Assembly (NCBI GenBank): GCA_002067365.1
Contig: MVRK01000060.1
Coordinates: forward strand, 1-43,572
Reading direction: 5' to 3'
Origin: Methanosaeta sp. PtaU1.Bin060
GTDB lineage: Archaea > Halobacteriota > Methanosarcinia > Methanotrichales > Methanotrichaceae
Length of the DNA: 43,572 bases
Shown here: positions 6,471-39,518 of the stretch, piece by piece
Layout of the letters: each line of letters begins with the position of its first letter
Numbering within the stretch: position 1 is the first letter of the stretch
Program-made: the position numbers and the translations under genes
The notes under the pieces: generated by a model
The model's input: the letters and a program-made list of their open reading frames with translations, nothing else
The model's database searches: none
Told to the model about the DNA's origin: nothing

Positions 6471-9400
6471 TCACATGAAGTCCGCCAGCCCCATCTGCTT
6501 TGCCTTGTCGTTCTTGAAGATGGAGTTGATCTCGATCTTGAGAAGCTCAAGCCTCTGCTTTGTGTAGCTCGAGACGCCGTACTCCTCGGCCACCTTCATT
6601 GAGACCTCAAGATATTTTCGCACGCTGCCCTCATGAACTGTTAGGATCAGCCTGCCGCCGCATTTGGGGCAGGTCTCCTTGAGCGGCGGCCTCCTGAACT
6701 TGGTGCCGCACTTCACGCACCTGACCTTCTGCTTTGAGAAGGCATGGAGGTTGCCTATAAGATCCGGCAGGAAGTGAGAGTTGATGACCCTCTCGGCGAC
6801 GTCCCGCTCATCCACCGCCCTGATCAGCCGCGCCAGCTCGAGCTGCGCATCCATCTTGTCGATCATGGTCTCCAGGGTCTTGTAGGCGCTGTTCTGTGGT
6901 CCTGCGGCGATATCCGAAGTCTCATGGCTGAACCTGAAGCCCTCGTACTGAGCCTCAGAGCCGAGCCTCTTCGAGACGAGGTCGAACCTCGCCTCAACAT
7001 CCTTGGGGCTCGCGCTCTTCAGCGTCGCCTCGTAGAACTCCAGGGGATAGACCGCAGTGAGGTCCAGGTTGTGAGCCTCCTTGTCCACCTCCAGAGGATT
7101 GAGCTGCGTGGTCATGACGAGGCACGCATCCATCTTGCCGCCGCGCTTCTCGGGAAGGTACGACATCGAGAAGTTCAGCAGCGCGTCCATGAGGAGCATC
7201 ACGCAGTCCTCGTCCCCGTCGCAGTTGCGTCTCTTGGCCGCGTGAAAGAACGGATGGCCGAATCCCGCGGAGGCTGTGCTGTAGCCTATGAGGCGGCAGA
7301 GAACTCCTGCTGAGGTGTGCGGTGCGAGCCCCACCATCAGAGTGCCGATCAGGTCCTGAGGAGACTTCGCGTTGTAGTAGGGCTTCAGGCCGTAGAACTT
7401 GAGAAGAAGATCGTCCACAAACTGGGCGACCTTGAGAAGGTACTCGCCCGCATCCTTGGACAGGATGATGTCTTGGACCTTCAGCTCGCAGACCTGCTCT
7501 GGCCCTGTCAGAGGCATGCCATTCATATCCTTTTCATAGCCCATCTGCCTCAGCCTCTCCAGGGAGGTACCTATCTCGTCAGGCCGGAAATGAGTTAGCG
7601 GAAGGTCGGTGAGGTCGTATCTGACAGTGCCATCCTTGAAGATGTTCACACCGTGCTTGGCCCTCAGAATTCCCTTCTCCAGCGCCTCAGGCGTCTTGTC
7701 CCTGGAGGAGAGGCCCATCACCCCTTTCAGGATCTCCGGCTCACGCTCGCCCAGGTGCTCCAGAGCCTCATGGTAGAGCCTCTTCAGATCCACTCGCATC
7801 GGGGATGCTGCCGTCGTCTCCTCTCCGCACTTCGGGCACTTCTCCTGGCCCGGAATGTGGCACTTGGGGCAGACCCTCTTCTTGTCTGTATAGCCTCCGC
7901 ACTCGCAGCGGAAGGCGAAGCCCTCTTTCCCGCAATCTCTGCAAACCCTGCGCTCGATCTGGACATCGACGATCCCGCTGATGTTCCCCTCGGCGTGCTT
8001 CGCAGCCTCCTGGATAGATCTCGACTTGCCTCCAGCATCGCCAGTAGGAAATAAGACATGAGGCGGCGGGCGCATCAGCCGCTTATCCGACTTCTCAGGC
8101 CTGCCCATCCTGGCCCCGACGCGCGTGGGAGCCCTCGCCCTGACAGGAATGCCAGCGAGCCTGTTCACAGCCTCCAGGGTCGAGGCCTCCTCCAGCCGCT
8201 CCCATCTCTTTCGCAGCCCCTCTGGCTCGATGCCGAGGCATAGCAAGAGCGGCAGAGGATCTTCGATGATAATCCAGCCGTCACTCACCCTGTGCAGCAC
8301 GAGCAATGTCTCCAGAGCATCTTTTGCGTCCGGGGGAAGGAGAAGGCCCCCCGATTCCAGGCGGCCCTCAGAGGAGACCATTGAGGCCAGGCGCTCGAAA
8401 TCCTCGATGGCCAGGTCGTGCCAGAGGTATGTATGAGCCGGATGAAGCGCAATGCCGTATCTCCTTGAGATGGCCACTGCCTCCTCCCCGCTGATCCTCT
8501 CCTTTCCCGAGGGATCGCCTCCGGCTTTCGCAAGCTCCTGAGCCCACCACTCGAAGGTGTAGGATGCAGGAGCCAGGGTTCTGTTGTTCTCGAGAAACTC
8601 CCCGAAGCTTATGAGGATCTCCCCGAGGTCCAGGATCTTGGAGACGTGGGCCTTGATGGCCGTATTTATGGCTCTCGGGTCCTTGGGCCTGGTGGGCATC
8701 CAGGCCAGGAGATCCTCTGCAGAGTCCAGGCGCACGACATCTCCGTTCAGGAGACAGACTGTTGGCCCCTCGATGGAGCTTACAGGTGCCACTGCCGCTG
8801 CTTTCCCTGGCTGCTCGACCTTGATCTGGGTTCCCGCGGCCATGAACTCGCCTAGGAGCAGCATCGACGCCGGATTTATGCCTGCAGCGGCAAGGCCCGT
8901 GTTCCTCGCCCTGCCGTAGCGCAGCCGAAAGCCGCCCGGCCTTGAGGGATGCGAGAAGACAGGCCTTCCAGCGATGAGGTCGCGCAGGAACTTTGGACTC
9001 GAGTCCCCGCCGTCCTTCTTGCCGCTCGCCAGGCTGTCAAGCCACTCCCATCCTGCGATGCCCAGCTTCGAGACATGCTTCTTGAGCTTCGGCCTCTTCA
9101 GGGCGATTCCCTCAGCCGAGACCAAGGCGATCCCCCCGCGAACGCGGTTCGTCTCTATCCTCGGAAGGTCACGAAATCCTGAGACCTCCTCCTCCTCTGT
9201 GGGCTCGCCGTCGATGCAGATCGGACAGTTGCGAACTATGGTCCTTATCTCATCGTCCGAGGGTGAGTACTGAAGACCTGCAACCCTTTTGTAGACGCCT
9301 ATCTCCTCAACATAGCGCTCGACCTCCTCCGGCCGTGGCCGCCAGGGCTCGATTCCCACCTTCCTTCTAACATAGTCCGCCACGAGGACGGAGAGGGCCT

Positions 9401-9848
9401 GGGCGGTGCCGCCTGCAGACCTTATCGGACCTGCGTAGTAGACCTTGAGATAATCTGACCCGTCATCGTTCTTTCCGAGCGATACGCGGGCAATGCCCTC
9501 GATCGGCGCAGCGACGACGCCCTCCGTGAGGAGCGCGACTGAGGTGCGAATGGCGCTCTCCACCGACTCGATCTTCGAGAAGCCCTGGCCGAGCCTTCCC
9601 TCGGCGAAGTCGATGCCTATGGCAAGGGCAGCTTCCTCCCTGCTCATCCCCTTCGCCTCAAGCTCCCTGATCCGAGAAGCAATCCCGGGAATCCCAATCA
9701 GCTTCTCGACGCGCTCAGCCAGGTCGACGGCCAGAGGTATCTCAACATCCGTCGTAGGGTCCTTTCCCTGGCTTCGTGCCTCTTTGGCGATGGCCATGGC
9801 CTCATCGAGGCCGCCTTCAAGAAGGTCGAAGTACTCTCTGGTCTTCAT
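6471..9848 (-). CDS. polC: DNA polymerase D large (catalytic) subunit DP2
   Basis: This is the 1125-residue catalytic subunit of the euryarchaeal replicative polymerase PolD. It works with DP1 (the 3'-5' exonuclease subunit, not in this window) and PCNA. The N terminus ([20 protein letters not shown]) and the length are typical. The catalytic aspartates lie in NCDGDED at about residues 876-881. Zinc modules are visible at about 630-675 ([17 protein letters not shown], then CPKC...CPKC) and about 1040-1062 (CVKCG...CPKCGG). The C-terminal [15 protein letters not shown] resembles the PCNA-binding tail region of the family. The active-site motif is uninterrupted, so no intein is present. The start ATG overlaps the stop of the upstream PPC gene by 4 bases (ATGA), so the two are translationally coupled. 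Confidence 0.97.
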
Positions 9849-10273
9849 CGCTCTCCCCAGAGATGGAGCCCTGTCGCAGGATCATGCTCTCTTATCAGCG
9901 GCTGCCCCACAAGCTCCTGCAGACAGATCTCAGCAGCGAAGACCTCTCCCTTCATGAGGTGGCCGCCCCTCGTTCTTCCCTCGCCGTCTGCGAGGACAGC
10001 GTGAGCATGAACGAAGGGCTGGCCGTCCCTGAGGGATATGTTTCCCAAAGCTGAGACCATCTCGACAGGTCCTTCCACTCTGATCGTCTGATACATATGA
10101 GCCGCCTGATCATAGCAGGCCAGCTCGGCTCGGCTCAGCGCACCGATGGCTGAGAGCGTGCCAGTCTTGATCCCCTCGCGCTTTGCCAGATCAGATATCT
10201 GGCTGACGATCTCAGCTCCGAGGTCGAGCCTTGCGAGAAAGCATCGGCCTTGCTCAAAGTCTCTGACATTCAT
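9845..10273 (-). CDS. PPC/DUF296-domain DNA-binding protein
   Basis: The 142-residue protein is a single PPC (plant and prokaryote conserved, DUF296) domain, a trimer-forming alpha/beta fold that in plants is linked to AT-hook DNA binding. Recognisable segments are [39 protein letters not shown] and the GG-rich [18 protein letters not shown]. The His-x-His of PFVHAH fits the metal-binding site seen in several family structures. ATG 10273 has GAGG 7 bases upstream; a GTG at 10276 is also in frame. The gene ends in an ATGA overlap with polC, so it is the leader gene of that operon. The function is unknown; a replication-linked or nucleotide-related role is inference from position only. Confidence 0.85.
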
Positions 10274-10514
10274 CACGCAGCCTCATCTTCCAGGTCATAA
10301 TCCATCTGATCGGGTTTCATCTAGCATTGCTCAATTAGCCATTCTCGCATTAAAGCATCTTTCCTTGAATGCCTGCTTGAGGGATACATCCCCTCGCATG
10401 CATCTCCTTGCCTAATGCATAGTTTGATGGGCATTACTGCTGTCGGTGCCATCTTAACAATCTTCATCAAATATATTATTGCTTTACCCCTTTTTTTCTG
10501 ATGAATGCGTACGT

Positions 10515-10596
10515 CTACAGATATCGTTTAGAGAAAACAGGAAAAATTAAGATTAATATTATTATTCTCTAAGTTCCTTTTTTTCGATATCTGTAG
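10515..10596. repeat. 82-bp imperfect inverted repeat
   Basis: The outer arms CTACAGATATCG (10515-10526) and CGATATCTGTAG (10585-10596) are perfect 12-base reverse complements. Inner arms TTAGAGAA (10528-10535) and TTCTCTAA (10565-10572) also match. The interior is AT-rich and a T7 run lies just before the right outer arm. The structure could be a miniature mobile element remnant, a terminator-like RNA hairpin, or a regulatory RNA. I saw no second copy elsewhere in the window and no clear target-site duplication. Confidence 0.65.
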
Positions 10597-10867
10597 AAGC
10601 ATCGAATTTTTCTTGAGCTACATTTCCGATGGAACTTAGGGCAGAAAGCGGATCGATCGGCTGAGAGCCAGAGCTTTGCCGTTTGGCTATCGATATTTGC
10701 GCTCTATGTGCCTTTCGCATCATATCGACAGCCTCATGTCGATCGCCTCATGCCAATAACTCCCATTGTCAGGGTTCTCGGGCCCTTTTGCAGTCGGGGC
10801 CATCCATTATCTTGCGGATATATTTCGTCGGCATCTCAGGCGCAGGTCTATCCCACAGCCAATAGTG

Positions 10868-10875
10868 ATTTATAA
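10868..10875 (+). promoter_or_regulatory. putative TATA box of aspD
   Basis: TTTATAAC lies about 35-42 bases before the aspD ATG. It would start a transcript just upstream of the AGGAGG ribosome-binding site at 10899-10904. Confidence 0.5.
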
Positions 10876-10909
10876 CGTAATGGCTCTGGTTCATGTGCAG
10901 GAGGAAGCC

Positions 10910-12502
10910 ATGCAGCGCTCAGTTGAAGAGAAAGGTTACGAAGCCCTCAGCCCTTTTGAACTCAAAAATAAACTCGTCAGTATGGCCCAGACAAGTCGCG
11001 AGAGGATAATGCTCAATGCAGGCAGGGGAAACCCTAACTGGGTGGCCATCGCCCCCCGCGAAGGATTTTTCCAGTTTGGCCTCTTCGCCCTCGATGAGTC
11101 GCAGCGCGCTAAACACCGCCCCGGTCTAGGCGGCGTCGCCCAGAAAGAGGGGATCTCTCAAAGGTTTAAAACATATCTAGCGGCGCATTCCGGCGAGGCT
11201 GGCATCCAATTCCTCGATGACATATTCGAGCATGTGTGCGTGACTCTCAATATCGACGGCGACGCATTCCTGAACGAGATGGTCGATGCAGTCCTAGGTG
11301 ACCACTATCCTACCCCCGACAGGATGCTCACTCTGTGCGAACAGATCATCCACAAATACATCGAGCAGGAGATGCTGGGCGGCGATCCCGCCATCGGGAA
11401 GTTCGACCTCTTCGCGACAGAGGGCGGCACAGCGGCTATCGACTACATCTTCACGACGCTGGCAGAGAACAAGATCCTGCGCAAAGGCGAGAAGATAGCC
11501 CTTGGCACTCCGATATTCACACCATACATCGAGATACCTAGGCTCAATGATTATGAGCTCGTCGAGCTCGATGTGGCGCAGGACGAGAACTCAGACTGGC
11601 AGTATCCTGACTCGGAGATAGAGAAGCTCGCCGATCCGTCAGTCAAGGCCTTCTTCCTCGTCAATCCCTCCAATCCGACGTCGGTGAGCATTCAGCAGAA
11701 GACGCTCGATCGGATCTCTGAGCTTGTCAAGACGCGCAGGAAGGACCTCATCATACTCACCGATGATGTCTATGGCACATTCGTCAACGGATTTAAGTCC
11801 CTGGCGGCGGCAGCTCCCCACAACACCATCCTCGTCTATTCGTTCTCGAAATATTTCGGGGCGACGGGATGGCGCCTCGGCGTCATAGGGATACATCAGG
11901 ATAACATATTCGACGAGCGTATAGCTTCGCTGCCTGCTGCCGACAGAGAGGAGCTGCACGCCCGTTATTGCACAGTCGAGCTTGACCCGGACCACATGAA
12001 GGTGATTGACCGTATGGTCGCCGACTCACGTTCTGTGGCGCTCCATCACACGGCTGGCCTCTCAACGCCTCAGCAGGTCATGATGGTCTTCTTCTCGCTA
12101 CATTGCCTCATCGACAAGAAGGGGGTTTATAAGAGATTGACGCAGGACATCGTCGCCACTCGCTTCAAGACGCTTTATGCCGCCATCGGCATACCGCATC
12201 CGACGAACGCCTACGACGCTCACTACTATACGACGATCGACATACCAACACTCGCCCGAACGCGCTACGGCGACGCATTCGCCGAGTTCCTCGTAAAAAG
12301 CTATGAGCCCATCGACTTTGTATGGCGGCTGGCGAAAGAGAAGTCGATTGTGCTGATGGACGGCGGCGGGTTTGATGCCCCGAACATGTCGGTACGCATA
12401 TCCCTGGCGAACCTCCCCGACAGCGCCTACGATTCAATCGGCAAGGGCATATCGAGTCTGCTCGAGGACTATTACAATACGTGGAAGGCGTCGGAGAGAT
12501 AG
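10910..12502 (+). CDS. aspD: aspartate 4-decarboxylase / aspartate aminotransferase (AspD type)
   Basis: This PLP enzyme of aminotransferase fold converts L-aspartate to L-alanine and CO2, with aspartate aminotransferase side activity. The 530-residue length matches the AspD family and exceeds ordinary class I aminotransferases (about 400). The start at ATG 10910 is set by AGGAGG 5 bases upstream, and the protein opens with the family segment SPFELKNKLVSMA. The PLP lysine is about Lys314 in VYSFSKYFGATGWRLG; NPSNPTSVS and DDVYGTF are the usual cofactor-binding stretches. It is followed 9 bases later by aspT, whose ribosome-binding site overlaps the aspD stop, so the pair is coupled. With AspT it forms an aspartate:alanine decarboxylation-antiport cycle known from bacteria. 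Confidence 0.9.
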   Translation: MQRSVEEKGYEALSPFELKNKLVSMAQTSRERIMLNAGRGNPNWVAIAPREGFFQFGLFALDESQRAKHRPGLGGVAQKEGISQRFKTYLAAHSGEAGIQFLDDIFEHVCVTLNIDGDAFLNEMVDAVLGDHYPTPDRMLTLCEQIIHKYIEQEMLGGDPAIGKFDLFATEGGTAAIDYIFTTLAENKILRKGEKIALGTPIFTPYIEIPRLNDYELVELDVAQDENSDWQYPDSEIEKLADPSVKAFFLVNPSNPTSVSIQQKTLDRISELVKTRRKDLIILTDDVYGTFVNGFKSLAAAAPHNTILVYSFSKYFGATGWRLGVIGIHQDNIFDERIASLPAADREELHARYCTVELDPDHMKVIDRMVADSRSVALHHTAGLSTPQQVMMVFFSLHCLIDKKGVYKRLTQDIVATRFKTLYAAIGIPHPTNAYDAHYYTTIDIPTLARTRYGDAFAEFLVKSYEPIDFVWRLAKEKSIVLMDGGGFDAPNMSVRISLANLPDSAYDSIGKGISSLLEDYYNTWKASER

Positions 12503-30277: not shown

Positions 30278-31804
30278 TTGAGGATCTCAGTCGACGGCAA
30301 GGAGATGGATCTTGCGGCTCCTGCCGTTTTGTCCGATGCTCTGACCAAAGCTGGAACCATCCTGGCCAGAGGCACCATCCTTGGCGTGATCATGGGCAGG
30401 GGCGAGAAGGCTCGCCAGACAAACTCCTACTGGATCAACACCACCAAGGGCAAGCTGCGAATAGAGATCGCAGAGACAGACCTGCAGAGGATCTGGCATG
30501 ATAGTGTGGAGAAGATCGAAGGCGCTGAGGCGAGATGGGCAACTGCAGACGGCGTCGCCTTCGGGCCCTTTGAATCGGCATTGGCCTTCGGCAGGGAGGC
30601 TCACGAGTACAATCGCTGGGAGGTGGTCCTGGGAGCCGCCGGGTTCGAGGCCGAGAAGACGCACTTAATCTTCATGCGCAGGAGGCACACTGCAGCCTAT
30701 GGCACGCCCGCGAACGGCGGCGTCCTGGCGCGCGTAGTCGGGGGAAAGAACACCCTCGATCGGCTGGAGAAGGGAGACCGTATAGAGTCCATCGAGCCCA
30801 TTGTCGAGTGGGAAGACCTGACTGAGAAGCTGGCAACAGATGATCTGAATCTTCCGCTCTCCGAGGGGATGGAGATCTACACCCATCTGGATGTGGAGCT
30901 GATAGAGGATGCCCCGAACGGGGCAGAATTCTTCCTGGCACTGACGAGGGATGGGGCGTTCAAGGTCGATTCCGTCTCAAGCTCCTATATATCCTCGGAT
31001 CAGCTTTTGACTGAGCCGATAGCCTTCGAGCACCGCGAGCCGAGGCTCGAGGGCGTGGCGACGATACGCACCATCGGGCGAGGACGCGGAAGGGTCTTCA
31101 TATACAAGGCAGATCGCACCTCCAACCCCGGCCATTCCGTCGTTGCGAGGGTCACCGCTGGCATGGAGATGGTGAAGCTGGCGAGGCCGGGCGACCTTCT
31201 GACTGTGTATGTGAGGCCTGAGCGCATAATGCTCCTCGGCTTGAGTCTCGACAAGGCTTTGAGGACGATGTCGGAGCGCGGGATCGAGACGGAAGTGGAA
31301 GGGCACAAGGGCGAGGACGCTGTGGTGGTGAAGCAGGAACCTAGGCCTACGATGGCGATCTTGAAGGAGAAGAGGGTGAAGCTGACTGCTATTCCCTCCA
31401 GCCACCTTGTGAAGATCGATCTGTACGACGATAAAGCTCCGAAGTCGCTGGACTACTTCAGGCACGTCACAGGCCTCAAGGAGAGGCCCGTGGGCCCTAT
31501 GCCAGTCTATTTCGTCTACGAGAATACTCTGCTCTTCAAGCCAGAGATCGAGGCCACGAGCTACAAGGAGCTTCTGCCCGAGAACAAGCCCACAGGACCT
31601 GTTCCTGCCGGATCCATAGGCGTCTCGAACCAGGTCGCCAAGAGGATTGGCTTGGTGGGAGTGAGGCTCGTGGAGGACAAGCGCTACGGACCCTCGGGCG
31701 AGAAGTTCGAGGCCACGAACATCATTGGCAGGGTTCTTGAGCCTGAAAAGCTGGCGGGCGTGAAGGAAGGGGAGACCATCTACGTCCAGGAGGTGCGAAA
31801 ATGA
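30278..31804 (+). CDS. methanogenesis marker protein 3
   Basis: The 508-residue protein matches marker 3, which has a ThiS/ubiquitin-like N terminus (MRISVDGKEMDLAAPAVLSDAL) and a C-terminal cyclophilin-like region (VKIDLYDDKAPKSLDYFRHVTG). From memory, it is among the subunits reported in the ATP-dependent MCR activation complex. The start is TTG 30278, supported by GGGGAG (30267-30272) 5 bases upstream, at the end of atwA. The protein contains no cysteine, so it cannot itself ligate an Fe-S cluster through Cys. It overlaps mmp6 by 4 bases. Confidence 0.92.
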   Translation: MRISVDGKEMDLAAPAVLSDALTKAGTILARGTILGVIMGRGEKARQTNSYWINTTKGKLRIEIAETDLQRIWHDSVEKIEGAEARWATADGVAFGPFESALAFGREAHEYNRWEVVLGAAGFEAEKTHLIFMRRRHTAAYGTPANGGVLARVVGGKNTLDRLEKGDRIESIEPIVEWEDLTEKLATDDLNLPLSEGMEIYTHLDVELIEDAPNGAEFFLALTRDGAFKVDSVSSSYISSDQLLTEPIAFEHREPRLEGVATIRTIGRGRGRVFIYKADRTSNPGHSVVARVTAGMEMVKLARPGDLLTVYVRPERIMLLGLSLDKALRTMSERGIETEVEGHKGEDAVVVKQEPRPTMAILKEKRVKLTAIPSSHLVKIDLYDDKAPKSLDYFRHVTGLKERPVGPMPVYFVYENTLLFKPEIEATSYKELLPENKPTGPVPAGSIGVSNQVAKRIGLVGVRLVEDKRYGPSGEKFEATNIIGRVLEPEKLAGVKEGETIYVQEVRK

Positions 31805-32217
31805 GGGTCACAAAATATGTGATAACATCTTCTGAGTCTGACATCCTTCCCTCGGACATCGCCATGAAGATCTATGGCTCAAAATACGATGTTAGCGTGA
31901 AGGAGACCTGCTTCGGAGTCATAGTGAACGGCGAGGAGAAGGAGATCGAGGCCTTGGTGAAGGATATCAGGGCAATGGACCCATCAGGCATCTTCATCAA
32001 GGACAGGGGCTTTCCGCCTGGAGACCCGCGCCGCTGCCGCGGTCGAAGGGGTGGTGGAGCGCGTCCCGGGTTTTACATGATCGAGTCCGAGTCCAAGATG
32101 CTGCCCATGATCTCAAGAGCACTGGCATCTGATGCAGAGGCTCCCGCAATCCCCGAAAAGAAGAAACCCATCCAGATGAAGAAGCTGGAAGAGATAGTGA
32201 AAGAGGAGTTATCCTGA
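31801..32217 (+). CDS. methanogenesis marker protein 6
   Basis: The 138-residue protein matches the small marker 6 family: VTKYVITSSESDILPSDIAMKIY, then CFGVIVNG and the conserved GFPPGDPRRCRGRRGGGARPGF loop, which carries a single Cys. The Lys-rich C-terminal tail is variable. The ATG overlaps the mmp3 stop (ATGA), so translation is coupled. The function is unknown beyond its constant linkage to MCR activation genes. Confidence 0.9.
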   Translation: MRVTKYVITSSESDILPSDIAMKIYGSKYDVSVKETCFGVIVNGEEKEIEALVKDIRAMDPSGIFIKDRGFPPGDPRRCRGRRGGGARPGFYMIESESKMLPMISRALASDAEAPAIPEKKKPIQMKKLEEIVKEELS

Positions 32218-32226
32218 GGTACACGG

Positions 32227-32664
32227 ATGGCAAAAGTCATAGTTTATCCTCCTACGAGCATGATCCTCTCCGACCTCGTGGAGAGGATGGGCCATAAAGC
32301 TCTCGTAGTTCCCGAAGCTGTGCGAACGCTGGTCACGGCAGAGGGGATCGAGTCCCCTCCATTGAATGTCACCCCCGAGGAGCCCAAAAAAGGGTTGCAC
32401 TACGCTGCAGTGGATGTACCATCAGGCGTGCGGGGGCGAATGGCGCTGATAGGTCCGTTGATCGAAGAGGCGGAGGCGGCCATCATAGTGAAAGATCCTG
32501 GGTGGCTGACGGGCTGTGCTGGCTGCTCACGAACCAATGAGCTTGTCAGGCTTCTCATCAGGACTAAGGGAATCCCAGTCCTCGACCTCGCCTATCCCAC
32601 TGATGATGCCGAGGCGAGGGTCTTCGTGCAAAATATCAAGAAATTCCTGGAGGGTTTGAAGTGA
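32227..32664 (+). CDS. methanogenesis marker protein 5
   Basis: The 145-residue protein matches marker 5 (MAKVIVYPPTSMILSDLVER start and the conserved PGWLTGCAGCSRTNEL loop with a CxxC pair near residue 100). GAGG lies 7 bases before the ATG, within the gap after mmp6. The CxxC pair could bind a metal or cluster. It overlaps mmp15 by 4 bases. Confidence 0.9.
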   Translation: MAKVIVYPPTSMILSDLVERMGHKALVVPEAVRTLVTAEGIESPPLNVTPEEPKKGLHYAAVDVPSGVRGRMALIGPLIEEAEAAIIVKDPGWLTGCAGCSRTNELVRLLIRTKGIPVLDLAYPTDDAEARVFVQNIKKFLEGLK

Positions 32665-33887
32665 TTCGCATAGCTCAGCTCTCCTGCGGTGCGGAGTACA
32701 GCGGCATTCAAAAGGAGATCGAACGCGCAGCAGAGACAGTTGGCGCGACGATAATCTTTCCAGAGGTCTCCCTTGAGGACATACTGAGCGTGGAGAAGAC
32801 CTTTGGGGTCTCAGTGGCCTCGGGTGACCTGAACATGGCGATGGCGAGGGCGGTGCGCATTGTGCAAAACCCGGATCTCGCGGACGCTGTGATAGTCATG
32901 ACGTGCTTCCGCTGTGCTGAGGCAGCCATCATCCGCTCGGAGATAAGGAAGTTCATCCACGAGCACTCCCGCATTCCCGTCCTCAGCTACTCCTTCACAG
33001 AGAGGACGACTGCGGAGACTCTCCTGACGAGGATGGAGGCCCTTGTCACGACTGTCAAGTACAGAGGGCTTCTCGCCAGGGAGCGCCAGAAAGGGCTGAC
33101 TGCAGGCGTAGACTCTGGATCCACCACGACCAAAGCAGTCGTCATGAGGGATAACGAGGTCGTGGGGACTGGCTGGGTTCCCACCACAGAGGTCATCAAG
33201 AGTGCAGAGGATGCCTATGAGGCTGCTCTGAAGCAGGCGGGCGTCCGAAGGGAGGAGATCCAGGCGCTTGGAGTGACGGGCTACGGCCGCTTCCTCGTGG
33301 GCAAGCACTTCGAGGCAAAGCTCGTTCAGGAGGAGATCACAGTCAACTCCAAGGGCGCTGTCTTTCTGGCTGACTCGCAGGCTGGCCCTGCCACGGTGAT
33401 CGATATTGGTGGCATGGATAACAAGGCCATCTCCGTCCAGGACGGCATTCCCGGAGGCTTCACAATGGGAGGCATCTGCGCCGGAGCCTCGGGGAGGTTC
33501 CTTGAGTTGACCGCGCGGCGTTTGGGCGTCGATATCACTGAGCTTGGGAAGCTGGCCCTGAGGGGCAACTACCAGAATGTGACCATGAACAGCTACTGCA
33601 TAGTCTTTGGGACTCAGAGCCTGGTGAACAGCCTTTCGATGGGCTGCAAGCCCGAGGACGTGGCGATGGCAGCCTGCCACTCAGTCGCAGAGCAGGTCTA
33701 CGAGCAGCAGCTTCAGGAGGTCGAGGTGAAGGAGCCTGTGATCATGGTGGGCGGGACGTCTCTCATCGAGGGCCTGCCAAAGGCGATGGAGCAGCTCCTT
33801 AAGGTCAAGGTGCTGGTTCCAAAGCATGCCCAGTACATCGGAGCAGTGGGCGCGGCGCTGCTCGTCTCGGGGTTGCTGGAGGATTGA
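32661..33887 (+). CDS. methanogenesis marker protein 15 (BadF/HgdC-type activator ATPase fold)
   Basis: The 408-residue protein has an N-terminal domain of about 145 residues (MIRIAQLSCGAEYSGIQKEI) and an ASKHA-type ATPase domain with GVDSGSTTTKAV, VTGYGRF, VIDIGGMDNKAI and GGICAGASGRFLE, as in activators of 2-hydroxyacyl-CoA dehydratases that use ATP to push electrons through a bridging 4Fe-4S cluster. Cys in GGICAGASG matches the cluster-ligating position of those activators. The GTG start overlaps the mmp5 stop. I infer an ATP-driven low-potential electron donor role in MCR activation. Confidence 0.92.
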   Translation: MIRIAQLSCGAEYSGIQKEIERAAETVGATIIFPEVSLEDILSVEKTFGVSVASGDLNMAMARAVRIVQNPDLADAVIVMTCFRCAEAAIIRSEIRKFIHEHSRIPVLSYSFTERTTAETLLTRMEALVTTVKYRGLLARERQKGLTAGVDSGSTTTKAVVMRDNEVVGTGWVPTTEVIKSAEDAYEAALKQAGVRREEIQALGVTGYGRFLVGKHFEAKLVQEEITVNSKGAVFLADSQAGPATVIDIGGMDNKAISVQDGIPGGFTMGGICAGASGRFLELTARRLGVDITELGKLALRGNYQNVTMNSYCIVFGTQSLVNSLSMGCKPEDVAMAACHSVAEQVYEQQLQEVEVKEPVIMVGGTSLIEGLPKAMEQLLKVKVLVPKHAQYIGAVGAALLVSGLLED

Positions 33888-33888
33888 G

Positions 33889-34461
33889 ATGGACCCCATG
33901 GAGGTCTTCAAGGTCGAGGCCACTGGCCAGGAGGAGTTCGGTGCCAGGAAATACAGGGAGATCATCATGGACATCCTCCAGGACCTCGGCCTGATCAGGT
34001 CGATCGGACGGCTTTATGTTTATATTGACATCGAGAAGCCCGTCTTCGCCGTTCGGGGCCTTCTGCGTACCGGCATACCGCCTTTGACTGTGAAGGACGT
34101 CGGGGATGTGCTGAAGGTCGAGGGCGGCTACCAGATCAAGATCAACGACGAGGAGCATATGGCTGACCTCCTCAATGTCCTGTGGGATCATTATGGGCGC
34201 GAGAGGGTGGAGCAGCCTGTGAGGGATGTCGTGATCATAGCTTCGGACACGCCGCCCTCGGAATTGGTGGTGGCGGACCTGGAGGCTGAGTTCATGCAGG
34301 ATCTGACGGATGCCCTCGTGAGGATAGCTCCTGAGGGATTTCGCAACAGGAGAAACGAGATGGCCAAGGACAGCTTCTTCTTCATCGCCGCAGAGGAGAC
34401 CTTGAAGCCGGAGCTGATCTTGGAGGTAAAGGAGAAGATCAGGAGCATGGAGAATGCTTGA
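33889..34461 (+). CDS. methanogenesis marker protein 17
   Basis: The 190-residue protein matches marker 17 (MEVFKVEATGQEEFGARKY, RLYVYIDIEKPVFAVRGLLR, FRNRRNEMAKDSFFFIA). From memory it is part of the reported MCR activation complex. It contains no cysteine. The ATG lies 1 base after the mmp15 stop, with GGAGG-like sequence in the mmp15 end. It overlaps mmp7 by 8 bases. Confidence 0.9.
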   Translation: MDPMEVFKVEATGQEEFGARKYREIIMDILQDLGLIRSIGRLYVYIDIEKPVFAVRGLLRTGIPPLTVKDVGDVLKVEGGYQIKINDEEHMADLLNVLWDHYGRERVEQPVRDVVIIASDTPPSELVVADLEAEFMQDLTDALVRIAPEGFRNRRNEMAKDSFFFIAAEETLKPELILEVKEKIRSMENA

Positions 34462-35377
34462 GCCAGTGATGTTCACCGGCGGCGTGTACAAGCACGACCT
34501 TGTCATCGAGCTGGTCGAGGACCTCGGAGGCTATGTCCTTCAGAGGAATGTGACCCAGAGCGAGGTAATCCTCTTGCTGTTGGTTCCGACTGAGGACCAG
34601 GCCGCCCTGCAGGCCCTGACAGGCGAGCTCAGGGGCGAGCTGGTGCGTGCGCCGCTGGCGGGAACCGAGGTGGCTGTGGTGACGCCAACCCTCGCGATCC
34701 ATCATCTGCCTCACACCGCCTGCGACATCGCCGAATATCTGCGCAGGCACGGGGCCAAGTCAAATATGATCGGCCTGGCCCGTGGGGTGGGGCGCGATAT
34801 AGCTCAGATCACAGAATACGAGGCTGGACTGATAAACGAGCATGATGCTGTGGTCTTCATCTTCGGCAACTTTGCAGAGTGCATTCGCAAGAAGGAGAGC
34901 CTCTATCGCAACATCAGCGTGCCTGTTGTGGTCACAGGCGGGCCCGAGATGCCGGCGAGCGATCTGCCCTATGCCTTCGAGTACGTTCCTGCGGTCGGGC
35001 GAATCTCTCACCGCGCCAGGAAGGCCACGGAGATCGGCACCCTGGACAGGATAATTGCCGCAGTGGCCAGAGCCCTTGATAGGACCAGGGCTGAGATCGC
35101 CAAGGATCCCCTCACCACCTCGCCGCCGCGCGTGATGGATGCCGTTCGCGAGCAGGTGCCAGAGGTCGAGTACTCCTATTCGCCGCTTCCAATAGCACTC
35201 AACCTGAATGGCGTGAGGGTGAAGCTGCCTTTCGAGGAATACAAGGATGCAGTCGAGGCGGTCACATTCGACGAGGGTGTCCGGCTTAAAGAGATAGCCG
35301 CAATCAAGCCCTCGCGAATGAAAGACTATATACTTGTGAGGATATTGCCCGCCTCTGAGACGGGATTTGTCTTCTAG
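34454..35377 (+). CDS. methanogenesis marker protein 7
   Basis: The 307-residue protein matches marker 7 ([32 protein letters not shown]). It carries two cysteines, in [10 protein letters not shown] and [10 protein letters not shown], which are the obvious candidates for cluster ligation. From memory it is a core subunit of the MCR activation complex. The ATG overlaps the mmp17 stop by 8 bases. It is the last gene of the atwA operon. Confidence 0.9.
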   Translation: [307 protein letters not shown]

Positions 35378-36465: not shown

Positions 36466-36909
36466 ATGAGTTTTGTGGGCGAGTTCAAGGAGTTCGCCAT
36501 GAAGGGGAATGTCCTCGACATGGCGGTGGGCATCATCATCGGCGCAGCCTTTGGAGGGATCGTCAATTCTCTGGTGAAGGATATCATCATGCCGCCTTTG
36601 GGGCTGTTTCTTGGCAAGGTGAACTTCACAGACCTTTTCGTCTCCCTGGACGGGAAGAGCTACGCGTCTCTGGCGGCTGCCCAGGCAGCGGGAGCGCCGA
36701 CCATAAACTACGGCCTCTTCATAAACACGATCATCAACTTCATCATAGTGGCCCTGGCCATCTTCGTCGTGATCAGGCAGGTCAACGCCATGAAGAGGAA
36801 GCCAGCGCCACCCGAGCCGAACACCAAGGAGTGCCCCTACTGCAAGGAGAGCATACCCAAGGCTGCTGTCAAGTGCCCGCACTGCACATCGGATCTGGCC
36901 GTCCATTAG
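36466..36909 (+). CDS. mscL: large-conductance mechanosensitive channel with C-terminal zinc ribbon
   Basis: MscL opens under membrane tension to release solutes during hypo-osmotic shock. The 147-residue protein has the N-terminal helix [23 protein letters not shown]1 at about 16-42 and TM2 at about 84-108, with a periplasmic-side loop between. After the cytoplasmic helix it ends with a zinc ribbon, [19 protein letters not shown], also known in some bacterial MscLs. GTGAGG lies just before the ATG. Confidence 0.95.
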
Positions 36910-37236
36910 CTCTTTTTTTCCGAAAAGGGATTTTGATCTCCTTTGGATTAAGCCAGCTCGCTGCACCAGCACACTCCGAATAGATTCTGCAGAAATCTAA
37001 GGGCTTGATCGCAGTTAGCCTCGCCGATGATATCCAACGGACGGATGACTGCTTCATAAAGGAGAACTGCCCATGTCCGAGCGGGAGGCGTGTCTTGAAC
37101 TGCCTGTAATCGAATAGTGGTTCGAAGGCGGGAAGAGGCCAAGGCTACAGGGGATCCATGAACTGAAGTCCTTTCTCCACGGGCTGATGGCGTCAAGGTT
37201 TTGATGCCAAAATATCCTTCTTGTGTTTTAAATAAT
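36910..37236. other. 327-bp intergenic region at the edge of the AT-rich island
   Basis: A T7 tract at 36913-36919 probably terminates mscL. The middle has no gene that I can support; a minus-strand open frame through it lacks a ribosome-binding site or recognised family and may be a decayed remnant. The right end becomes AT-rich as the Trypco2 gene begins. Confidence 0.5.
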
Positions 37237-37728
37237 TTATGACCCAACTAAATGAAGCTTTAAATTATGTGTGGTCTCTGATTTCATACCACCTTTAGCA
37301 ATTACTGATATTTTGCCCCCGCTACAGACGATAAAATTAAGTTCAACAGAAGCGTTTTGGAGCTTAAATCTAGGAGCTTCAACAATTGCATTTTTAATTC
37401 CCTGTTCAATTCCCATAATTAGATCTACCAAATTATCTTCTATCTTCTCGTCTCCAAAGAGCTGTACCTCTTCAACAGGGACAAGAGTCAATTCTATCGT
37501 TTGGGTCTCTTCTTTTGAGATATTCCCTTCCAGGCCCAGTGACTTATCCACTATAGGCAATTTTAGCTCCACCCCCCCTTCTTTATTATTATATGCCTTT
37601 AACCTCAAATCCAGCTTTTCGATTTTGACTCCCATCTTGGAGCTATAGGACCTTCGCTCTACCTCTCTGATAGCTTTCTTAACTTTTGATATTATTCCGT
37701 CTATCTGAACTCCAACATCTTCGGGCAT
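37237..37728 (-). CDS. tandem Trypco2-like (trypsin-co-occurring domain 2) protein
   Basis: The 163-residue protein appears to contain two copies of the Trypco2 domain. Copy 1 (about 8-84) has an amphipathic helix (IDGIISKVKKAIREVERR), beta strands around KIEKLDLRLKAY, and the typical end EETQTIELTLVP. Copy 2 (about 99-162) repeats this: LVDLIMGIEQGIKNAIVEA, ASVELNFIV and TTHNLKLHLVG. Trypco domains were described by comparative genomics as adaptors found beside proteases in prokaryotic conflict systems. ATG 37728 has GAGGTG 6 bases upstream; a GTG at 37737 is in frame. It follows the subtilase-TPR gene by 39 bases on the same strand and probably partners it. The domain call is by eye. Confidence 0.65.
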   Translation of the reverse strand: MPEDVGVQIDGIISKVKKAIREVERRSYSSKMGVKIEKLDLRLKAYNNKEGGVELKLPIVDKSLGLEGNISKEETQTIELTLVPVEEVQLFGDEKIEDNLVDLIMGIEQGIKNAIVEAPRFKLQNASVELNFIVCSGGKISVIAKGGMKSETTHNLKLHLVGS

Positions 37729-37767
37729 TCCTTTCACCTCTGGTGCAGTATCAATTCTGGTCAGTTT

Positions 37768-39267
37768 TTAACTCGACGACTGATTTTTCGCCTTCAAACC
37801 TGCTTCATTCAATTTTTTTAAAACTCGTATTCTCTCCTTCGATGCCATGACGAACGAAGGATCTTTTTCAATAGCCTCATCAAGAAATTCTAGTGATTCT
37901 GTATATCTCTTCAATCTGGAAAGGGCTAAACCCTTATTATACCAGTGATCCACGATCGATGGATCCAGTTCTATTGCTCTGTCGAAATATTTTACTGAGG
38001 CATCGTATTCCCCTCTACGCCCCAAAATTCCACCTAAATTGTTATAAGCTTTAGCATTCTTTTTATTAAGTCTAATGGCTTTGTCATAGCATTTTGCTGC
38101 CTCATCATATCGATTGGTTTGCTCGTAGAAGCAACCCATATTGCACCAGGCATCTGATGCGAAATCAAGATTGAGGGGGTAATATTTTCTAATCTCTTCG
38201 GCACAGGATTCAGACTCAAGAGATTCAGTTTGATTCGTCCACGGCAAAGAGGTTACACCTTCAAGTTCCAAGACTTTATCGAAGCATTCAATTGCTTTAT
38301 CGCTTTGTGAAAGGGCCTCTAATGCCATACCCTTGCGATACCAAACATCTCCATCTGTTGGATCAATTGCTATAGCTGCATCAAAAGATTGGATCGCATC
38401 TGCGTACCGTTTCAGACCATAGAAACACAGACCCTGATAATACCAAACCTGATAATGCTGTGGGTCTTTTCCGACCGCTGTATTCAGAGATTTCAAAGCT
38501 TGTTCATATAGACCGTTGCTGAGGGATAAATAGCCTTCATACACGAAGGTCGGAACTAGATATGAGTCAAAGAAATAACTGATTGTAGGGGCGATATCGT
38601 TTGTGAATAATGTTCTATGTTCCTCATTCTCAGATAGCTTTTTCCGATCGACCGCGCCCACTACAATGATCGACTTATGACAATCAGCCGGAAAGTTGGC
38701 TCCAGCTGCTACATTGATTTTAATGTCGTTCTTGATGGCTCGTTCGATGGCGTCGCATACATTCTTTACAGCTTCCGAACAATTGGTCTCTTTGGATAGA
38801 TCTTCTTTTCTCTTAGCAAAGCCAAGAGACATACTAATTGTATGAGCACCTCTATCTACCGCCCAGTTCACGCCTTGGGCTATCCTGTTGATCTGTTCTG
38901 GCAGCGAGGCCCCGTCATTTTCAAAAACCTTGCCGCTTAGAATTGATATATCTGGGTATGTCATGGCCATGATTAGAGTAACTACAGTTCCATGGCCCAT
39001 ATGGTCTTCAATTCCATTACCTGTAAAATCTTCAATTGCTTCCAATCGATTTTTCAAATAAGGGTGTTCTGGCAGGACGCCACTATCTAAAACCGCAGCT
39101 TTGGCTCCTTTGCCTGTATAGCCATGCATTTTATTGATATTAATGGCTGACGATGTGCCTTCATTGAGCATTGGAACGAAATAAATACCACGTTTTTTGT
39201 CAAAAACATCGTCAATCTCTATTCTTGAATTACCGAAAAGCCTTACCTTGGAAGTATCTCCAAGCAT
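37768..39267 (-). CDS. subtilase-like domain lacking the catalytic Ser, fused to TPR repeats
   Basis: The 499-residue protein starts with a subtilisin-like (S8) domain. It has Asp61 in AKAAVLDSGVLPEHP, His92 in DHMGHGTVV, and an oxyanion-type NVAAGANFPAD near residue 191, followed by IIVVGAV. The expected GTSMAxP serine motif is absent: after about residue 230 the chain passes directly into about six TPR units (243-490), for example YYQGLCFYGLKRYADAIQSF and YNNLGGILGRRGEYDASVKY. No signal peptide is visible, so it is cytoplasmic. It is probably a pseudoprotease or needs a partner to act. The gene is AT-rich compared with neighbours and upstream of the Trypco2 gene. Its target is unknown. Confidence 0.75.
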   Translation of the reverse strand: MLGDTSKVRLFGNSRIEIDDVFDKKRGIYFVPMLNEGTSSAININKMHGYTGKGAKAAVLDSGVLPEHPYLKNRLEAIEDFTGNGIEDHMGHGTVVTLIMAMTYPDISILSGKVFENDGASLPEQINRIAQGVNWAVDRGAHTISMSLGFAKRKEDLSKETNCSEAVKNVCDAIERAIKNDIKINVAAGANFPADCHKSIIVVGAVDRKKLSENEEHRTLFTNDIAPTISYFFDSYLVPTFVYEGYLSLSNGLYEQALKSLNTAVGKDPQHYQVWYYQGLCFYGLKRYADAIQSFDAAIAIDPTDGDVWYRKGMALEALSQSDKAIECFDKVLELEGVTSLPWTNQTESLESESCAEEIRKYYPLNLDFASDAWCNMGCFYEQTNRYDEAAKCYDKAIRLNKKNAKAYNNLGGILGRRGEYDASVKYFDRAIELDPSIVDHWYNKGLALSRLKRYTESLEFLDEAIEKDPSFVMASKERIRVLKKLNEAGLKAKNQSSS

Positions 39268-39518
39268 ATGAACACCTTAAATAATCTTCTTTTGAAGACG
39301 GTTCTAATACTACATATAACTTTCTTACATGTTATGAGGCGGCTTAATCTTCGGGCAGCATGTGCCGGTGGCCGAGCCTGACGAAGATCTTTGCCTCGCT
39401 GCTATCCTGCATCTTCCTGTACAGCATTGCAGGTGACCAAGTGAGGGGCCCGCCCGCCAGACTGTTCTGCCGCTAAATAATCTCCGGCATCATCCTTCGC
39501 GCGGCCTGCTTCTTCCCC
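39268..39518. other. intergenic region with a possible gene remnant
   Basis: Next to the subtilase gene the DNA is AT-rich and probably carries its promoter. From about 39,344 composition turns GC-rich. A minus-strand frame at 39344-39427 reads MLYRKMQDSSEAKIFVRLGH and ends HMLPED before a stop. It looks like natural coding sequence but is only 27 codons, so it may be the end of a lost gene. No family is recognised. Confidence 0.35.

Follow-up and report, generated by a model that had tools for sequence, protein, structure and literature searches.

A two-gene module in the methanogen Methanosaeta sp. PtaU1.Bin060 encodes a subtilase domain without its catalytic serine, fused directly to about six TPRs (gene A), and, adjacent to it, a Trypco2-Pepco tandem adaptor (gene B). 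We read the pair as a conflict-type (immunity or cell-death) module, with a probability of about one half, in which gene A, equipped with a TPR groove, would act as a sensor or a decoy without cutting, and gene B would be its adaptor. The window, the whole stretch of DNA analysed here, comprises 43,572 nucleotides; the features relevant to the module are listed below.

36466-36909, plus strand: MscL gene
37237-39267, minus strand: two-gene module (genes A and B), between the MscL and FMN reductase genes
37237-37728, minus strand: gene B, tandem adaptor of the Trypco2-Pepco type; its length is 163 aa with the ATG 37728 start and 166 aa with GTG 37737
37249-37449, minus strand: second, diverged, Pepco-like copy (PF24393) in gene B (weak Pfam match, stronger in homologues; hhalign)
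37477-37695, minus strand: Trypco2 domain (PF19631), N-terminal half of gene B (E 9.5e-11)
37729-37767, minus strand: 39-base spacer between genes A and B, holding the Shine-Dalgarno motif GAGGTGA (37740-37734)
37768-39267, minus strand: gene A, 499 aa, serine-less subtilase domain joined directly to about six TPRs; Shine-Dalgarno motif AAGGTG at 39278-39273
37858-38547, minus strand: about six TPRs, residues 241-470, starting about where the subtilase serine helix is expected (TPR_1, AlphaFold2, Foldseek)
38548-39114, minus strand: subtilase (S8) domain without the serine helix, residues 52-240 (Pfam, phmmer, conservation against Methanosarcina acetivorans)
39087-39085 and 38994-38992, minus strand: codons of Asp61 and His92; Asn191 is a possible oxyanion residue
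39519-40115, minus strand: FMN reductase gene

By domain homology, gene A belongs to the peptidase S8 (subtilase) family: residues 52-245 match Pfam Peptidase_S8 (E 7.4e-15, 55.4 bits against a cut-off of 21.8), and residues 47-209 align to subtilisin BPN' (phmmer, 2e-11). The family match stops at position 209 of a 288-position profile, having started at position 1, so the serine-bearing C-terminal part is absent. Asp61 (within LDSG) and His92 (within GHGT) are present, the GTSxAxP serine motif is missing from gene A, and neither this protein nor its M. acetivorans homologue has the complete Asp-His-Ser triad of an active subtilase. When both proteins are aligned with intact subtilases of archaea, they keep to the fold as far as the 'IAP' segment; the first TPR (LVPTF...) starts about where GTSxAxP is due. 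The repeats are matched by TPR_1 (E 2.3e-49), and in the AlphaFold2 model about six helix pairs of the TPR type run from residue 240 onward, with pLDDT mostly about 70-97 in the TPRs, low near residues 340-365, and moderate in the S8 part; Foldseek matches the model to TPR structures. Beyond confirming the TPRs, the structure models add little. The original prediction of a subtilase domain with Asp61 and His92 but no serine motif, running straight into about six TPRs, was therefore borne out. Its 'oxyanion-like Asn' is plausible as Asn191 but ambiguous, as this residue lies within VAAGAN, offset by a possible one residue from the usual AAGN.

M. acetivorans (locus L011 in genome G151, which we take to be strain C2A) carries the same pair, with a gene A homologue of 463 aa that also lacks the serine; identity between the two organisms is 57% for gene A and 70% for gene B. 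LDSG, GHGT and VAAGAN are strictly conserved between the two proteins. In this one comparison, between the only two serine-less S8-TPR sequences known, gene A has a pS of 0.75, at which synonymous sites are saturated, and a pN of 0.28, and its identity is 66.5% in the S8 part (residues 51-210), 55% in the TPRs and 32% in the linker. Gene A is under purifying selection. Because synonymous sites are saturated, pN is low and conservation of the protein peaks in the serine-less domain, we take the serine-less form to be old and maintained, and gene A appears to be a functional pseudo-enzyme and not a damaged copy.

It had been allowed at the outset that close homologues might carry a complete serine motif and expose gene A as a merely broken copy. 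They do not: since the M. acetivorans homologue is also serine-less, the module is not simply damaged, and recent breakage was rejected, the same segment being absent there and selection being strong. A decaying remnant, in which the serine-containing end was deleted and both genes drift to loss, might be suspected, since only two copies are known and the gene, foreign and AT-rich, sits at a break in synteny; with both frames intact in two distant genomes, and pN far below pS at synonymous saturation in a protein whose serine-less domain is best conserved, this is largely refuted and extremely improbable. The strict retention of LDSG, GHGT and VAAGAN in both members, within the most conserved domain, could instead mean that gene A is still a protease, either with a serine that gene B or another subtilase provides in trans, or with a different nucleophile working alongside Asp61 and His92. 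The S8 protein at locus L057, described below, keeps Asn and Ser without Asp and His, which indicates that the two halves can exist alone. We nevertheless hold continued proteolysis to be very unlikely, because the alignment places a TPR helix at about the point of the serine helix, and the complementary S8 half is missing from the vicinity, the two opposite halves occurring in different organisms.

Gene B is best started at ATG 37728, which follows a good Shine-Dalgarno motif, whereas the alternative GTG 37737 falls within that motif; with this start, the predicted 39-base gap between the genes is correct. Residues 15-87 fall within the Trypco2 family at 42.2 bits against a cut-off of 24.2. 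The C-terminal half scores below the Pepco cut-off (E 0.0022, 18.9 bits against 27), and Pepco is above the cut-off in the homologues at loci L012 (33.7 bits) and L013 (31.8 bits); we regard this half as a probable diverged relative of Pepco and do not call it a member. Profiles of the two halves align in register over their length (hhalign, E 1.6e-5 and 4.3e-5), and gene B is therefore a true tandem with one diverged copy. Of the two tandem Trypco2 copies originally proposed, the tandem arrangement and the N-terminal Trypco2 domain stand, while the C-terminal copy has diverged and is read by Pfam as Pepco; the refuting outcome, an HMM search without a Trypco2 fold in either half, did not occur, as the N-terminal half is Trypco2 and the C-terminal half holds a Pepco-like domain homologous to it. 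The structure model of gene B (pLDDT 43) shows, at low confidence, a helix-strand unit repeated twice, and a PDB profile search with the adaptor returned only meaningless matches to designed helical proteins. The source genome has one Trypco2 match, and both adaptor copies lie in that single protein; there is no second Trypco2 protein in the genome with which to form the paired adaptor copies on two proteins of the EAD principle.

Trypco2 was defined beside trypsins, as a domain that co-occurs with them in predicted conflict systems (Kaur et al. 2020, PMC7159879), and has been treated as an adaptor beside CHAT and TIR (PMC10907252). Its occurrence with other partners in archaea was surveyed in sampled class and phylum genomes of Halobacteriota; bacterial S8 partners of Trypco2 lie outside this sample. 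Eight archaeal Trypco2-Pepco-type proteins were found, two with a serine-less S8-TPR partner, one with an S8 protein that has Ser but not Asp/His, two with CHAT, one with TIR-STAND and two (L056 and L058) without an obvious partner. At L012 (2768-6836, minus strand), in Methanothrix genome G204 (probably M. soehngenii GP6), TPR, CHAT and Trypco2-Pepco genes form an apparent three-gene same-strand operon; the CHAT gene (E 7.8e-18) has intact His and Cys motifs, and the adaptor is 45% identical to gene B. At L013, on a contig of Methanosaeta sp. PtaB.Bin039, two CHAT genes are convergent with the adaptor, and the CHAT proteases at these two loci look active. At L059, the adaptor (7571-8065, minus strand) is divergent from a TIR-STAND NTPase gene (8855-11440, plus strand) that matches PADLOC ThsB and the candidate defence family PDC-S60. 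At L057, the adaptor (7916-8401, minus strand) overlaps by ATGA a 425-aa S8 protein (6642-7919, minus strand) whose match spans profile positions 89-255, with AAGN and STSFAAP kept and the Asp and His segments absent; this partner starts after the Asp/His segments and in that respect mirrors the gene A protein.

Genomes with S8 genes carry about 1-3 of them, so the adjacency of S8 genes to the adaptor at three of the eight loci (or at two, with the window and M. acetivorans taken as a single case) is far above chance. Across the eight loci, gene order shows partner swapping, with the adaptor as the constant element and the protease-fold protein as the variable one. The conflict-system architecture originally proposed thus gains indirect support, from the occurrence of Trypco2 in predicted conflict systems (PMC7159879) and from archaeal homologues beside CHAT, S8 and TIR-STAND genes. 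A broader generalization is put forward tentatively: archaeal Trypco2-Pepco adaptors may use pseudo-subtilases as non-proteolytic receptors, lineages having independently lost either one side of the catalytic site (Ser, in Methanothrix and Methanosarcina) or the other (Asp/His, in a further archaeon of the Halobacteriota), and, as the same adaptor also occurs with active-looking CHAT, one family might serve both cutting and non-cutting sensors.

Under the conflict-module reading, the subtilase domain of gene A would keep its fold up to the serine and be unable to cut by the usual mechanism. Its retained cleft, together with the TPR superhelix, might bind a peptide or protein, for instance a product of the invader, a protease of host or viral origin, or an inhibitor of such a protease, and the signal could then be passed on by binding or releasing gene B. 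Gene A would thereby serve as a decoy, a receptor without proteolytic activity or a dominant-negative regulator. It is presumed here that A and B interact physically, that A binds a ligand, that the pair has a role in defence and that a downstream effector is encoded elsewhere than in the operon; the models, with a pLDDT of 43 for gene B and a moderate S8 part for gene A, are too weak for judging cleft integrity or for docking. There is precedent for inactive domains in such roles, since, among the domains in effector position, nearly all of the trypsin type and about 70% of the caspase type are inactive and have been proposed to be dominant-negative or peptide-binding (PMC7159879).

Several known systems resemble the module in part. 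The VMAP (MoxR-vWA) ternary systems (PMC7159879) likewise place a separate small Trypco2 gene beside a peptidase-fold protein, and inactive peptidase domains are frequent in them; here, in contrast, the peptidase is S8 rather than trypsin or caspase, the adaptor is a Trypco2-Pepco tandem, the host is a methanogen, and a Pfam scan of 10 flanking ORFs (~6 kb upstream, ~3 kb downstream) found no MoxR, vWA or VMAP genes, so that no ternary system of this type is present in the scanned flanks. Fungal two-gene clusters in which S8 or CHAT is fused to TPRs act as cell-death sensors controlling gasdermins (PMC12881547). These S8/CHAT-TPR/WD40/ANK clusters share with the module the direct joining of S8 or CHAT to TPRs, the two genes and the S8/CHAT interchange, but their partner is a gasdermin instead of an adaptor, and the S8 domain here has lost its serine. 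The pseudo-subtilisin CspC of Clostridioides difficile is a proposed signal receptor (PMC6636752), and CspC/CspA are, like gene A, subtilisin folds with catalytic residues lost, serving there as regulators; they differ in carrying point changes in two triad residues of a complete fold, whereas in gene A the serine-bearing C-terminal segment is gone and TPRs stand in its place, and they have no partner or context in common with the module. The L012 operon combines the same adaptor type with TPR and protease genes, although its CHAT motifs are intact. Within the part of the literature that was searched, no paper describes a Trypco2 adaptor paired with a subtilase lacking its serine, and PADLOC has no model for the A+B pair.

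Two-gene organization and horizontal spread would also fit a toxin-antitoxin-like pair, in which gene B would hold in check a toxin, or a toxic binding protein, encoded by gene A, comparable to subtilase/AAA pairs. IetAS is a defence system of this kind, consisting of the subtilase IetS and the AAA ATPase IetA, and the S8 part of the M. acetivorans protein gives a weak PADLOC match to IetS (E 1.7e-6). Such similarity is what any subtilase would give, however; the S8 part has no nucleophile, the scanned flanks contain no AAA ATPase gene, so that neither an adjoining IetA nor an active IetS is found, and the adaptor also occurs without a protease neighbour. We consider a toxin-antitoxin-like pair decidedly unlikely.

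The interest of the module lies in the fact that Trypco domains have so far been named by co-occurrence with peptidases only. With a non-cutting protease partner, and a minimal pair in the genetically tractable M. acetivorans, both the binding of adaptor to peptidase fold and the need for catalysis become testable. A conserved serine-less subtilase, possibly with a second case in which the opposite half is missing, also joins a short list of regulatory pseudo-subtilisins.

The locus itself is AT-rich beside GC-rich neighbours, as had been noted from the sequence: GC is 0.41 in gene A and 0.39 in gene B against 0.55 for the window, and GC3 is 0.37 in the module against 0.73-0.83 for its neighbours. 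None of the 25 other genomes of the genus has the MscL and FMN reductase blocks together: they lie on separate contigs or far from each other, which rules out a clean empty-site comparison; the module, flanked by window positions 36910-37236 and 39268-39518, sits at a synteny or rearrangement breakpoint. A search for flanking direct repeats gave weak matches only, none convincing. A short orphan frame at 39347-39457 is absent from the rest of the genus.

The same 10 flanking ORFs, checked by Pfam, are housekeeping or core methanogen genes, with no defence gene or effector beside the module. TPR scaffolds are often co-chaperones, and the lack of a defence island amid core genes would suit a housekeeping or stress regulator, in which the pseudo-subtilase-TPR protein is a chaperone-like scaffold in protein quality control, gene B is its co-factor, and neither has a defence role. 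This explanation seems doubtful in view of the patchy distribution (of 238 class genomes, 4 have the tandem adaptor), the foreign composition and the homologous adaptors beside CHAT and TIR-STAND genes. The adjoining methanogen gene cluster (31801-35377) comprises the DUF2102, DUF2113 and MCR operon protein C (MCR_C) families.

Horizontal acquisition of the module, at the rearrangement point, is likely, given its GC of 41/39% against 55%, its patchy presence and the separation of the flanking blocks in relatives. Further, distant homologues of the adaptor occur in the phylum, and the branches of the adaptor tree are too few and too long to root or resolve it. Across about 480 sampled Halobacteriota genomes, the serine-less S8-TPR protein is found only in the window genome and in M. 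acetivorans; an S8 search with gene A drops from E 4.5e-80 to 2e-14 at the next matches, and none of the nearest S8 relatives examined there has the serine-less, TPR-fused form. Seven of those examined in full (L062, L063, L091 and L093-L096) have GTSxAxP; L092 is a short ORF (267 aa) without the serine motif that appears to end early, and none of these eight is TPR-fused beside Trypco2. Plasmids, phages and viral contigs yielded no Trypco2-Pepco relatives, and the plasmid S8 matches that were inspected, all of them S8 proteases about 1100-1260 aa long, have no adjoining adaptor gene. A pattern scan of the genome collection returned only L015, on the same contig as L013. An adaptor fragment with an in-frame TAG lies at 7514-7696 of locus L060 (genome G491), where a genome of the same genus (G543) has an intact stand-alone copy, that of L056.
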